DNA from: Ruminiclostridium cellulolyticum H10
GTDB lineage: Bacteria; Bacillota; Clostridia; Acetivibrionales; DSM-1351
Length of the DNA: 64,000 nucleotides
Direction: 5' to 3'
Assembly: GCF_000022065.1 (NCBI RefSeq)
Contig: NC_011898.1
Span: forward strand, 186,001-250,000
Within the stretch, counting starts at the first letter, position 1, and each line of letters begins with the position of its first letter. This document shows, piece by piece, positions 11,310 to 19,199 of this stretch. The notes beneath the pieces are model-generated. The model was not told the DNA's origin and ran no database searches. It saw only the letters and a list, made by a program, of their open reading frames with translations. Position numbers and translations under genes: made by a program.

Positions 11310-12203
11310 ATGAAAGTTATTTTTACATTTTTAGACGGAGTGGGAATAGGTGAAAAAGATAGGATGGCAAATCCTGTGTATGCTACTGAACAACAGATAC
11401 TTGCCCAACTTATTGATAATGCCAAATTTCAGGCCGATGCGTCAATGGGTGTGGACGGTCTTCCGCAAAGTGCAACGGGACAGACCACAATATTCACTGG
11501 GGTAAATGCTCCCAAGATATTGAACAGGCATTTGAGTGGACAACCCACCATTTCTCTTAAAAAGGTAATATATAAATCAAATATGTTCAGTGAACTTATA
11601 AAAAGAGGTTTTAATGTTACAAGTTCAAATGTTTACAAGGATGAGTACCTGAAAAATATGCTTAACTCAAAGGACAGAAAGAATCGGCCTTCTGTAACCT
11701 CTGTCATGTGTATGGCATCCGGGATTGATTTCAGGACATTGAGTGAATTCATTAATGGCGACGGCGTATACCATGATATTACAGGAGATATACTAAAGGA
11801 GTCGGGTTGCCGGATTGAAACCGTTACACCACAGAAGGCGGCACAAAACCTTTACAAACTTAGCCGAAACTATGATTTTACATTGTACGAGCACTTTCTA
11901 ACGGATATACAGGGCCATAAAGCGGATTTTTATGAAGCGGCAAAATTAATAGACAGACTGGACAGCTTCCTTGATGAATTAATAAAGCAGATGGATTTTG
12001 AAGAAGATGTACTTATTATTACCAGCGATCATGGGAATATAGAGGATATAAGTATTCATACACATACAATGAACAAGGTACCTGTTATAGTATTGGGTAA
12101 AAAAGCGGAAAAAGTAAAGACAGAGATACATTCATTGATAGACATAATGCCGTTTGTGCTTGAATTATTTTCAGGGAATAGACGCGGAAGTGAAGTAACT
12201 TAA
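11310..12203 (+). CDS. Alkaline-phosphatase-superfamily metalloenzyme (phosphopentomutase/phosphoglycerate-mutase-like)
   Basis: 297 residues. The metal-site start FTFLDGVGIGEKD, the nucleophile region GLPQSATGQTT (Thr/Ser after GQ) near 48-58, and the C-terminal metal motif ITSDHGNIED followed by HTHTMNKVPV mark the two-metal binuclear fold. It lacks the large cap domain of full phosphoglycerate mutases. The substrate is unknown. AAGGAG lies 8 nt before the ATG, and a U32 peptidase gene follows after 21 nt, probably in one operon. Confidence 0.82.
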   Translation: MKVIFTFLDGVGIGEKDRMANPVYATEQQILAQLIDNAKFQADASMGVDGLPQSATGQTTIFTGVNAPKILNRHLSGQPTISLKKVIYKSNMFSELIKRGFNVTSSNVYKDEYLKNMLNSKDRKNRPSVTSVMCMASGIDFRTLSEFINGDGVYHDITGDILKESGCRIETVTPQKAAQNLYKLSRNYDFTLYEHFLTDIQGHKADFYEAAKLIDRLDSFLDELIKQMDFEEDVLIITSDHGNIEDISIHTHTMNKVPVIVLGKKAEKVKTEIHSLIDIMPFVLELFSGNRRGSEVT

Positions 12204-15273: not shown

Positions 15274-15302
15274 GCTTTATATAATGAAAGGAGGCTGATT
15301 TT

Positions 15303-17093
15303 ATTAAAGTAAATGGTAATATTCAATCAATAAAGGATAAGGTTCTTCAAGAATTGGAAGACTTATACGATAAAAAATACGGTTCGCGGGATTTGGTCCC
15401 CGAGGAACTTGCCCTAACTATTACAAGAATATCAGCAGAGATAAACCGAGAAATATCTGTGCTTCTTAATAGAAGAGGTGTTGTGGTTGACATAAGTATA
15501 GGTGACAGCGGAACTGTCACTCTTCCTCAAGTAGACGGAAGGCGTGGAACAGCAAGGCTTTCGGCAATAAGGTGTATTCATACGCACCCTAATGGAAGCG
15601 GGATGTTGTCACAGGTAGACGCAAGCACACTCCAAAAGCTCAGATTGGACGCCATGATAGCTGTAGGTATTACAGACGGACAGCCATCGGATATTTATGC
15701 GGGCTGCCTTAATCATGAGGAGGGCGTTGACATTTATGGCCCATTTGAGATAAGAGATACCCGTCTCAACTATATCTACAGAATAATAGAAGAATTGGAT
15801 GCCTCGGCAAAGAACGAAATTTATGAAAATGAAGAAGAAGCAGAGACTGCAATACTTGTGAGTTTGGAAACTTCTCAAAGCAGATTGGAGAATATAACCT
15901 CAAGAGATGCCCAAGAATCACTTGAGGAGCTTGAGGAACTGGCAAAGACCGCAGGAGCCGTGGTTGTGGACAAGGTATTACAGAAAAAGCAAACTGAGGA
16001 TTCTGCGTACTACATCGGAAAGGGAAAAATAGAGGAACTTTCTTTGATGTGTCAGGCAAGAGATGTTCAGCTTCTTATTTTTGATGATGAACTTTCTGGG
16101 GCTCAGATAAGGAATATTGAGGAGATGACAAAGGTAAGGGTAATTGACAGAACAACCCTTATACTTGATATATTCGCACAAAGAGCTGTTTCGAAGGAAG
16201 GAAAGCTTCAGGTAGAGCTGGCACAGCTTAAATACAAGCTTCCAAGACTTGTAGGGATGGGAACGGAGCTTTCGAGACTTGGTGGAGGTATAGGAACCCG
16301 GGGACCCGGAGAAAAAAAGCTAGAGGTAGACAGAAGGCATATACGTAGGAGAATAACAGGTCTTGAGCAGGAATTGAAACACCTGGAGAAGAGAAGGCAG
16401 TTTCTGCGCAGCAACAGAACCAGCAATAATACTCCGGTGGTAGCAATTGTGGGTTATACAAATGCCGGGAAATCAACACTATTAAACAGGTTTTGTGGTT
16501 CCTCGGTGTTTGTTGAAGATAAGCTTTTTGCAACTCTTGACCCGTCTGCCAGACAGCTTACACTGTCCGACGGAAGGGAGGCAGTTCTCATTGATACGGT
16601 TGGTTTTATAAGGAAGCTGCCTCATGATTTGATTGAGGCTTTTAAATCCACACTGGAAGAGGCAGTTCATGCAGATATGCTTTTGCACGTAGTAGATGCC
16701 TCAAATGAGAATGTTTCAATGCAAATATCCGTAGTGGAAAAATTGCTTGAAGAGCTGGGTGCTTCCACGAAAAGAACCATATTGGTGCTAAACAAGCAGG
16801 ATTTAGTTCAGGAAGACAGGAGAATAAGCTCTGTAGGTTATTCTGCGGTTTGTGAGATATCAGCTGTTACAGGATATGGTATAGAACAGCTGTTGGAAAA
16901 GATAACGGAAGGTTTTATGCATCAGCTAAAGGAGGTACAGCTTCTTGTACCTTACAATGATGGGTGGGTTATGCCGTATATCTACAAAAATGGCCGGATA
17001 ATTGACCAAGAATATGAGGAAGGAGGGATTAAGGTAAAGGCACTGGTTAAGGTGGAAAAAGTTAGCAGACTTACTGATTTTATGGTTGTATAA
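15303..17093 (+). CDS. hflX: GTPase HflX with N-terminal JAMM-like domain
   Basis: Ribosome-associated GTPase; HflX splits stalled 70S ribosomes under stress. The core is complete: the HflX domain with AGAVVVDKV, YYIGKGK and GGGIGTRGPGEKKLE, then the G domain with P-loop GYTNAGKS (367-374 counting from TTG 15354), DTVGFI and NKQD. The N-terminal ~150 residues are extra. They contain E33, H76, H78, S86 and D89 arranged as in JAMM/MPN metalloproteases (HTHPNGS followed by LSQVD). The strong AAAGGAGG at 15287-15294 sits 8 nt before an in-frame ATT at 15303 giving IKVNGNIQSIKD; the first standard start (TTG 15354) has only a weak site. ATT initiation is therefore plausible but unproved. Confidence 0.85.
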   Translation: MKVNGNIQSIKDKVLQELEDLYDKKYGSRDLVPEELALTITRISAEINREISVLLNRRGVVVDISIGDSGTVTLPQVDGRRGTARLSAIRCIHTHPNGSGMLSQVDASTLQKLRLDAMIAVGITDGQPSDIYAGCLNHEEGVDIYGPFEIRDTRLNYIYRIIEELDASAKNEIYENEEEAETAILVSLETSQSRLENITSRDAQESLEELEELAKTAGAVVVDKVLQKKQTEDSAYYIGKGKIEELSLMCQARDVQLLIFDDELSGAQIRNIEEMTKVRVIDRTTLILDIFAQRAVSKEGKLQVELAQLKYKLPRLVGMGTELSRLGGGIGTRGPGEKKLEVDRRHIRRRITGLEQELKHLEKRRQFLRSNRTSNNTPVVAIVGYTNAGKSTLLNRFCGSSVFVEDKLFATLDPSARQLTLSDGREAVLIDTVGFIRKLPHDLIEAFKSTLEEAVHADMLLHVVDASNENVSMQISVVEKLLEELGASTKRTILVLNKQDLVQEDRRISSVGYSAVCEISAVTGYGIEQLLEKITEGFMHQLKEVQLLVPYNDGWVMPYIYKNGRIIDQEYEEGGIKVKALVKVEKVSRLTDFMVV

Positions 17094-17168
17094 ATCCACC
17101 AGTTAGAGTATTATAATATTAACAGACAACTAAATAAAACTAAATTCTATCAGAAAGGGGTTTTGATT

Positions 17169-17582
17169 ATGCTTGTTAGAAACTGTGCAGGTGGAGTGGT
17201 CTTTTCTGGAGATAAAGTGTTTCTATTAAAAAATGAGAAGGATGAATGGGTACTTCCAAAGGGGGTAATAAGGAGTGGTGATTATCCCGATGAGGTAGCC
17301 AAAAGGAGAGTAAAGGAAGAAACGGGAATTGATGCCGAAATTGTTTTAGCAGCAGGCAATACCAATTATGAATTTTTCTCTGTAACACGTCAACGTCCAG
17401 TTTGTAATAAGATTACCTGGTATGTAATGAAATCCCTTAATGATAATTTTGAAATAAATAAAGGTGAGAATTTTAGTGAAGGCAGATATTTTTCCATTGA
17501 TGAGGCTTTGGAGAAGATTACTTACAGCCAAGACAGGGCACTTATAAATTTGTCTTACGCGAAATATAAACAGCTGGCTTAA
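17169..17582 (+). CDS. Nudix hydrolase family protein with variant Nudix box
   Basis: 137-residue single-domain Nudix protein, which would hydrolyse a nucleoside diphosphate linked to another group. The Nudix box reads GVIRSGDYPDEVAKRRVKEETGI: the consensus Glu after the first five residues is Asp, and the REUxEE core is RRVKEE, with the first catalytic Glu replaced by Arg. ATG 17169 is preferred over TTG 17163 because AAAGGGG lies 9 nt upstream. Substrate unknown; it may have reduced activity. It is followed by its own terminator. Confidence 0.82.
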   Translation: MLVRNCAGGVVFSGDKVFLLKNEKDEWVLPKGVIRSGDYPDEVAKRRVKEETGIDAEIVLAAGNTNYEFFSVTRQRPVCNKITWYVMKSLNDNFEINKGENFSEGRYFSIDEALEKITYSQDRALINLSYAKYKQLA

Positions 17583-17616
17583 CAATAAGTTTTAAGTAGT
17601 ATAATGCAATAAGTAT

Positions 17617-17648
17617 CAGCACTCCCGGTGTTTGGGAGTGCTGTTTTT
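17617..17648 (+). terminator. Rho-independent terminator
   Basis: Perfect 10-bp stem CAGCACTCCC with GGGAGTGCTG, 7-nt loop, then a T run. Confidence 0.93.
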
Positions 17649-17707
17649 AGATATGGGATAAATATAAAGGAAATAGTTGAAGAAATAATTGTAGCCGGGA
17701 GGTTAAC

Positions 17708-18358
17708 TTGTTAACTGAATATAAAACAATATTGAATACCGCAGAAGCGGAGTTTGAAGAAAAGAAGTCCAGATTTATAGCCAATGTCCGTCCTATAACA
17801 TGTGAGGAAGAAGCATTGGAATTTATCGAAGAAATGAGATCAAAGTACTGGAACGCAACACATAATGTGTATGCTTACAGTATAAACAATGGTACATTGG
17901 TTCAACGATACAGCGATGACGGGGAGCCTTCAGGAACAGCAGGAATGCCGACCCTCGAAGTAATAAAGCGTATGGGCCTGCAGGATGTTGTTGTAGTGGT
18001 GACACGCTATTTTGGCGGAACCTTGCTGGGTGCTTCCGGCCTTATACGTGCCTACAGCAAGGGTGCCTCCCTTGGACTTGAGGCTGCTGAAATAGTTACC
18101 CGTAAGCTATGCTATAACCTGAATATTATAATTGAATACACTATCTTTGGGCGCCTGCAGAACATGCTCATTTCAAACAATAATATAATAAAGGACATCA
18201 GATATGAACAGGATGTTGAACTTTGCGTTCTTATAGAGGTTGGAAATGAGGAAGAACTTATGAAGGATATTGTAGAGGTCTCCAATGGAAGGGCCGTCAT
18301 TGACCTTGGAGAAAAAACTTACATTACATTGGGCAGTGACGGAAGGTTGATTATTTAA
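17708..18358 (+). CDS. YigZ/IMPACT family protein
   Basis: 216 residues with the UPF0029 (IMPACT) N-terminal domain. Signature stretches are KKSRFIANV, WNATHNVYAY, RYSDDGEPSGTAGMP and VVVTRYFGGTLLGASGLIRAY, and the C-terminal ~70 residues match the DUF1949 ferredoxin-like domain. The B. subtilis homologue is YvyE; the molecular function is not settled, though eukaryotic IMPACT modulates translation control. TTG start with GGGAGG 5 nt upstream. The yebC promoter begins within its stop region. Confidence 0.92.
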   Translation: MLTEYKTILNTAEAEFEEKKSRFIANVRPITCEEEALEFIEEMRSKYWNATHNVYAYSINNGTLVQRYSDDGEPSGTAGMPTLEVIKRMGLQDVVVVVTRYFGGTLLGASGLIRAYSKGASLGLEAAEIVTRKLCYNLNIIIEYTIFGRLQNMLISNNNIIKDIRYEQDVELCVLIEVGNEEELMKDIVEVSNGRAVIDLGEKTYITLGSDGRLII

Positions 18359-18382
18359 CAAATAACTATTATAATTTATAAT
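18355..18382 (+). promoter_or_regulatory. Probable sigma-A promoter of yebC
   Basis: TTAACA (18355-18360), 16-nt spacer, TATAAT (18377-18382), about 70 nt before the yebC start and overlapping the yigZ stop codon. Confidence 0.5.
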
Positions 18383-18452
18383 GGATTTTAGTATTGTAAA
18401 CTAAAGCTTTAGCTTTTGAAAGAATATAAATAGGTTTTATTAGGAGGTAAAT

Positions 18453-19199
18453 ATGTCAGGGCATTCAAAATGGGCAAATATAAAACGCCAAAAAGGTGCA
18501 GCAGATGCAGTCAGAGGCAAAATTTTTACTAAGCTGGGAAGAGAAATCCAGATAGCTGTAAGGATGGGAGGAGCTGACCCAAGTTCAAATTCAAAATTAA
18601 AGGATGTTATAGCTAAGTGTAAAGCAAATAACATGCCTAATGACAATATTCAAAGAAGTATTAAAAGGGCTTCCGGTGAAACTGATGGTTCAAACTACGA
18701 AGAAATAACATATGAAGGCTACGGCCCGGGCGGAGTTGCGGTTATATGTGAATGTACAACAGATAACAGGAACAGAACAGCCGGTGACCTCAGACATTAT
18801 TTTGATAAATTTGGCGGAAATCTGGGACAAAGCGGCTGTGTTTCTTACATGTTTAATAAAAAAGGTGTTATAGTCATTGAAAAAAATGATAAGGTTAATG
18901 AAGAAACATTAATGATGGAAGCGTTGGATGCCGGAGCAGAAGACTTTGATTCAGACGACAACTGCTACGAAATAATAACTGATCCTGCTGATTTTTCAAC
19001 TGTTCGTGAGGCACTTGAGGCAAAGGGCTATGAATTCATTGAAGCAGAGGTTTCAATGATTCCGACCACTACTACCAAACTTACAGACCCGGAACAAATA
19101 AAGTTCATGGACAAGCTGATAGAAGCCTTGGAAGACCTTGATGATGTGTCAAATGTTTACCACAGCTGGGAGCAGGATGAGGAAAACGAGGAAGAATAA
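18453..19199 (+). CDS. yebC: YebC/PmpR family protein
   Basis: 248-residue cytosolic protein of the YebC/TACO1 family. Family members act as transcription regulators (PmpR) and, for some, help ribosomes through proline stretches. The start [19 protein letters not shown] and the stretch [11 protein letters not shown] are highly characteristic, as is [17 protein letters not shown] lies 6 nt before the ATG. It ends the conserved core; a perfect hairpin and a gene-poor accessory region follow. Confidence 0.96.

Follow-up and report, generated by a model that had tools for sequence, protein, structure and literature searches.

In the genome of Ruminiclostridium cellulolyticum H10, the first 160 or so residues encoded by hflX (15303-17093, + strand) probably form a JAMM/MPN metalloenzyme domain, resembling RadC and Prok-JAB and carried on an otherwise ordinary HflX; this domain is predicted to be a zinc hydrolase that would cut a target held on the ribosome. 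The window, that is, the whole stretch of DNA analysed, comprises 64,000 nucleotides (NC_011898.1, positions 186,001 to 250,000), and feature coordinates are counted from its first letter. HflX has been studied as a factor in ribosome splitting and antibiotic tolerance and is regarded as a GTPase. The parts of the protein are of known kinds, and the JAMM-HflX fusion appears to be undescribed within the literature searched; open-licence literature on HflX in combination with JAB, JAMM, RadC, MPN, or Mov34 yielded no description of such a domain on HflX, in agreement with the suggestion of an earlier note on this DNA that it has not been noted as an enzyme. A word search of the 2006 survey of prokaryotic JAB systems returned no mention of HflX. 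According to a 2025 review, N-terminal extensions occur in the HflX of several Clostridium spp., and the available part of that review names neither a domain nor an enzyme for them (PMC12493154). A second, well-conserved predicted active site in many clostridia would imply that work on short-form HflX may miss part of the function.

Organization of the long-form hflX gene

The frame is already open upstream of 15303, ends with the stop at 17093, and provides 596 residues counted from 15303, of which about 195 precede the HflX core. The core and C-terminus (15888..17093, +) are covered by the Pfam models GTP-bdg_N (from residue 205), GTP-bdg_M, MMR_HSR1, and HflX_C, and by TIGR03156, whose match to residues 196-536 scores 469.9 bits against an equivalog cut-off of 216.75 and assigns the protein to HflX. 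The core thus matches like that of other bacterial HflX proteins, the difference being that here the match begins only at residue 196, after the N-terminal extension. None of the NCBIfam or Pfam models scored above its cut-off in these 195 residues. The genome encodes a single HflX; the five further matches, none better than E 5.5e-10, span the GTPase region only.

Three parts can be distinguished ahead of the core: a conserved N-terminal segment with a predicted helix at residues 12-23 (15303..15371, +), the JAMM/MPN domain at residues ~27-157 (15381..15773, +), and a linker to the HflX core (15774..15887, +) predicted to be helical at residues 153-177 and of low confidence thereafter. The first of these has the consensus I-x-G-N-x-x-G-x-K-K-S-x-L-x-x-L-E-x-L-Y in the alignment underlying the A1 profile (defined below), and its segment and helix blocks reach pLDDT 93-95 in the predicted model. 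The earlier note had ended the feature at 15650, whereas the domain extends further, to about 15773.

Distribution of the N-terminal domain

HflX was identified at E <=1e-60 in 107 of the 147 genomes of a class sample, and in 43 of these 107 (row count) the match reaches residue 12 or earlier, so that the N-domain is present; the remaining HflX matches of this sample begin at residue 164-206, and each of the 43 long-form genomes has one HflX match only at this threshold. The 43 proteins, together with those of six named contigs, constitute the first set (n=49, including a few near-duplicates); the contig proteins, five from Ruminiclostridium and one from a MAG labelled Eubacterium, are 77-93% identical to that of the window. 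A profile built from 47 of the 49 sequences, two near-duplicates being omitted (A1), detected the domain at E <=1e-6 in 56 of 299 genomes of a phylum sample, with one match each, and the earlier expectation that it would be widespread in clostridial long-form HflX is borne out by both samples. The full set (n=104) adds to the first set the 55 phylum matches other than the window; in 54 of these 55 the domain and a P-loop motif lie in one frame, and the other, L100, is a 324-residue frame without the P-loop motif. Apart from L100, the phylum sample contained no stand-alone copy of the N-domain at E <=1e-6.

A quick tree of HflX cores was derived from 144 proteins, namely 103 long forms (L100 left out) and 41 of the 65 class-sample rows without the N-domain, of which 115 proteins were retained after removing those at least 82% identical. 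At least eight changes between long and short forms are needed on this tree when site-less proteins are counted as long, compared with a mean of 33 after shuffling; well-supported branches make three of these changes obligatory for the short group, and the long-form trait is clustered on the core tree. A single origin of the fusion was considered and set aside, one gain followed by several losses being indistinguishable from transfer on the quick core tree. As a separate observation, a 99% complete genome of the same order (G139), belonging to a family that has the long form, showed no HflX at E <=1e-60, and in two genomes of one family the hflX frames contain internal stops (TGA and TAA in G056; TAA in G143).

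The JAMM motif, its conservation, and its loss

Residues E50, H93, H95, S103, and D106, numbered from 15303, make up an exact JAMM motif, E-x42-HTH-x7-S-x2-D. The earlier note had listed them as E33, H76, H78, S86, and D89 from a TTG at 15354, numbers that are lower by 17; all five are present as it stated, and the JAMM metal-site spacing it had recognized is the exact H-x-H-x7-S-x2-D. A search of all open frames in the window that are at least 80 aa long (29,486 residues in total) gave a single occurrence of the pattern E-x30-60-H[STN]HP-x6-S-x2-D. As set out in the available part of PMC300881, the histidines and the aspartate of JAMM proteins hold zinc, the glutamate orients the water and serves as the acid-base, the second serine of the motif is predicted to stabilize the intermediate, and Ser, Thr, or Asn is allowed between the histidines; every element of the motif given there is found in the window protein and in 92 of the 104 members, window included. 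By analogy, Glu50 (15450..15452, +), which aligns with the RadC glutamate, is the predicted general acid-base residue, His93-Thr94-His95 (15579..15587, +) provides two predicted zinc ligands (both histidines in 92 of 104 members), and the segment at 15609..15620 (+) contains the predicted transition-state serine, Ser103, and the predicted third zinc ligand, Asp106. Ahead of the metal motif lies a low-confidence loop, residues 70-81 (15510..15545, +), with pLDDT <50 in 70-73 and 75-81, presumably standing where the JAMM Ins-1 loop would be; a pair of neighboring basic residues with S, D, or G directly after it occurs within residues 69-90 in 54 of the 92 full-site members.

In the first set, E50 and G67 are invariant (49/49), H93, T94, H95, S103, and D106 are each conserved in 48/49, and P96 in 47/49; no columns of residues 1-160 are more conserved than those of the five site residues, G67, and T94, the one protein that departs from them being L034. 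All five residues are present in 92 of the 104 long forms and, wherever H93 is present, E50, H95, S103, and D106 are present as well (92/92), with T94 and the spacing H-x-H-x7-S-x2-D equally constant; the distance from the glutamate to the first histidine is 33-44 residues in these members, and 43 in 64 of them. After removal of sequences at least 90% identical, the site is intact in 84 and lost in 8 of the 92 remaining. The site residues, therefore, do not vary freely among homologues, in line with the earlier prediction that a conservation map across long-form HflX would retain them.

The other 12 long forms (L034, L119-L121, and L124-L131) lack H93 together with one or more of the remaining four residues, and both histidines are missing in 11 of them, L131 having a histidine aligned with H95 and none of the other four residues. 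The glutamate and the serine are retained in L125-L130, four of which also have the aspartate, only the glutamate in L034 and L124, and none of the five in L119-L121; E50 is accordingly kept in 100 of 104 members. On the quick core tree, in which six site-less rows were left after thinning, the loss amounts to three changes among long forms, two of them forced by well-supported branches. This pattern looks like loss of a catalytic site with retention of the scaffold and the GTPase, and these lineages may thus be natural pseudoenzymes. Retention of the domain in these 12 of 104 members despite an incomplete site indicates some use that does not depend on catalysis, and the natural loss in two or three lineages offers ready-made controls.

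Relationship to JAMM families and predicted fold

Database scores of the single window sequence are low. Residues 1-175 alone match Pfam RadC with E 0.12 and 12.8 bits, short of the family cut-off of 22.1; this is the sole Pfam match of the window's own domain, Prok-JAB (PF14464) giving no row, and with the whole window protein RadC is absent from the best 25 of 26 matches. The PADLOC JAB model touches residues 93-116 with E 0.015, and a phmmer search of PDB sequences with the window domain returned no JAMM protein. When 47 members were scanned singly against Pfam at E <=1, Prok-JAB matched 24 and RadC 18, with best E-values of 5.4e-5 and 9.3e-5, respectively, the other families listed matching one or two members each; the HflX frame of L134 scores 24.3 bits with Prok-JAB, just under the cut-off of 25.

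Profile searches point to the same superfamily. With A2, a profile of 87 full-site domains from which five of the 92 had been left out as near-duplicates, the best 14 distinct PDB sequences are AMSH, AMSH-like, and STAMBP/Sst2 JAMM proteases (best E 6.8e-5), so that deubiquitinases of the AMSH/Sst2 kind are the closest among solved sequences; the match to AMSH pairs HTHP and SxxD and spans approximately residues 66-139, Glu50 lying outside it. Next in the list are Prp8, itself an MPN protein, and then plastid ribosomal protein S19 (E 0.06), which is not MPN. The smaller A1 gave the same AMSH family with E 0.0026. In a profile-profile comparison with hhalign, all long-form N-domains, site-less ones included, were aligned with 27 RadC sequences bearing the HNHP/HSHP motif, drawn from 34 loci in related genomes, in which some genes are represented twice; the probability is 93.4% (E 2.5e-7 for the pair) over residues 33-113, with E50, H93, H95, S103, and D106 paired with the E, H, H, S, and D of RadC, in comparison with 1.5% for the HflX domain ND1 and 0.4% for the reversed N-domain as controls. 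Judged from its sequence, the domain is related to RadC without being a member of the RadC family (PF04002). HNHPSG is the RadC signature and stands in the aligned RadC row, whereas the window has HTHPNG; the five paired site residues and the fold match described below are shared with RadC, and the fusion to HflX sets the protein apart.

The AlphaFold2 model computed on A2 has pLDDT 89.7 and pTM 0.86. Its best VIA-align match is JAMM1 of P. furiosus (Z 8.3, 3.0 A over 108 residues), a Z of about 8 being modest by VIA-align's own note, followed by RadC (2qlc; Z 7.2, 3.3 A over 101 residues), an archaeal Rpn11 homologue, Rpn11, and a bacterial Ubl-deubiquitinase (Z 7.0 each), and AfJAMM (1oi0; Z 6.6). 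P. furiosus JAMM1 and AfJAMM are stand-alone enzymes; the fold is alike, but here the domain is joined to a GTPase. Of the best 50 VIA-align rows, 47 are JAMM/MPN proteins, and the titles of the remaining three (9is6, 9ea4, and 2kks) do not allow them to be placed. The same conclusion follows from the first predicted model, for which Z reached 7.4. Foldseek lends weaker support: neither model had a match under E 0.001, TM-scores were <0.5, and the rows, led by the JAMM/MPN kind, also included unrelated folds (deaminases, GAF, SH2). The MPN fold match that the earlier note had anticipated is consequently obtained, more clearly with VIA-align than with Foldseek. Because sequence and fold evidence agree, membership of the N-domain in the JAMM/MPN superfamily, with a motif of the JAMM+ type, can be considered established by prediction.

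Proposed function and alternative explanations

The N-domain is most likely a zinc (iso)peptidase brought by HflX to stalled or hibernating ribosomes, and we infer the zinc, the catalysis, and the substrate. H93, H95, and D106 would hold the zinc ion, E50 would activate the water, and S103 would steady the transition state; HflX would bind a ribosome that is stalled, blocked by an antibiotic, or hibernating, and split it with GTP, thereby bringing the JAMM domain to the intersubunit face of the 50S, as suggested by mycobacterial HflX, and a peptide or isopeptide bond would most likely be cut there in something held on that ribosome. Candidate substrates are a bound factor such as a hibernation factor, the tail of a ribosomal protein, or a modified nascent chain. 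The HflX of Staphylococcus has been reported to take apart 100S ribosomes, which makes a hibernation factor an attractive possibility. The extension of mycobacterial HflX, located at the same end of the protein, makes contact with uL16 and helix 38 and extends to the junction of helices 69-71; it differs in having 39-58 residues and, in the available part of the review, no JAMM domain is mentioned for it (PMC12493154). If the JAMM domain, which precedes ND1, were placed like this extension, it would be turned toward the intersubunit space of a 50S undergoing splitting, and a substrate on the intersubunit face would be the simplest reading.

The JAMM fold may instead serve mainly as a structural or ribosome-binding extension, with a structural metal and an enzyme activity that is vestigial or absent, an explanation we consider rather unlikely. 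The site-less members, which arose at two or three places of the tree, speak for it, the N-terminal helix outside the JAMM core is conserved too, and the mycobacterial extension disorders 23S rRNA helices (PMC12493154); nevertheless, E50 and S103 accompany H93 without exception and are not metal ligands in the JAMM site as described in the available part of PMC300881, and they would be dispensable if the zinc site were purely structural. A further alternative concerns the bond: a RadC-like hydrolase might attack a non-peptide bond at the split ribosome, whether in a nucleic acid, in tRNA, or in an ester linked to tRNA. This seems improbable, since all JAMM enzymes of known chemistry, to our knowledge, cut amide or similar bonds, and the best solved matches of the profile are JAMM deubiquitinases. 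In its favor, RadC is among the nearest families and its function is given as unknown in the available part of PMC300881, and a loop of the HflX helical domain reaches the peptidyl transferase center, as stated in the corresponding part of PMC12493154. The weak single-sequence scores are also compatible with a chance motif or a misread N-terminus in which no domain exists, but conservation, profile, profile-profile, and fold evidence all speak against this, and its probability is close to nil; a chance motif is ruled out by the conservation and profile evidence together, because the site residues are conserved in 48-49 of 49 and in 92 of 104 sequences.

Long-form clostridial HflX could be a two-enzyme rescue factor, in the sense of the new kind of rescue factor envisaged in the earlier note: it would combine a GTPase splitting stalled or hibernating ribosomes with a JAMM zinc hydrolase that, in the same step, cuts a ribosome-bound protein, and it would have been reduced to a pseudoenzyme in some lineages; this broader proposal is a substantial possibility that falls slightly short of being probable. 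Should it be true, long-form HflX would be a bacterial counterpart, in its logic, of the proteasome lid, where a remodelling NTPase is coupled to a JAMM isopeptidase.

Genomic neighborhood

In the window, hflX is followed at 17163-19199 by genes of the NUDIX, YigZ/IMPACT-like, and YebC-like kinds. Among the 104 long-form loci, relatives of these and other neighbors were found for YigZ-like in 19, NUDIX in 17, dUTPase in 7, U32 peptidase in 6, and YebC-like in 6, as counted in flanks of about 0.4-1.5 kb (3 kb for six loci), and the gene at 11310 had relatives in none of the 104; the locus of the window is included in all counts except that for 11310. The neighbors vary, and neither a Ubl gene nor another substrate gene is linked to long-form hflX in these loci; neighbors were discarded as a hint to the substrate, no general partner being apparent. 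A link to ribosome quality control through co-occurrence was likewise discarded, as RqcH (PF05833) is present in 138 of the 147 class genomes and is too common to separate long-form from short-form genomes.

Start codon and possible control by IF3

The earlier note had translation begin at the TTG at 15354; an ATT at 15303 (15303..15305, +) is instead the probable start, and a Shine-Dalgarno-like element, AAAGGAGG (15287..15294, +), lies 8 nt upstream of it. In 11 loci from Ruminiclostridium and two sister-family genomes, some of them near-duplicates, this position is always occupied by ATT (7) or ATA (4), with GGAGG at the same place in eight of these near relatives, window included, and other purine-rich elements in three. 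ATG, GTG, and TTG are absent from 15 codons before to 2 codons after the conserved glycine in 8 of the 11 loci, and in the others (L008, L010, and L015) a TTG or GTG overlaps the purine-rich element or sits just ahead of it; most other long forms compared have ATG at this position. The long-form hflX of Ruminiclostridium thus appears, from the aligned loci, to start at ATT or ATA.

AUU starts are a known target of control by IF3, and one infC gene per genome is usual. It is possible that hflX is subject to IF3-type start control as infC is, which would be sensible for a ribosome-splitting factor, an idea we infer from the start codons. The genome of the window contains three infC (IF3) matches above the family cut-off, at 1615755, 3153777, and 3213785 (L193-L195), and at least one of the three infC-like genes shows the same arrangement of GGAGG, 8 nt, and ATT, with an in-frame GTG overlapping its Shine-Dalgarno sequence.
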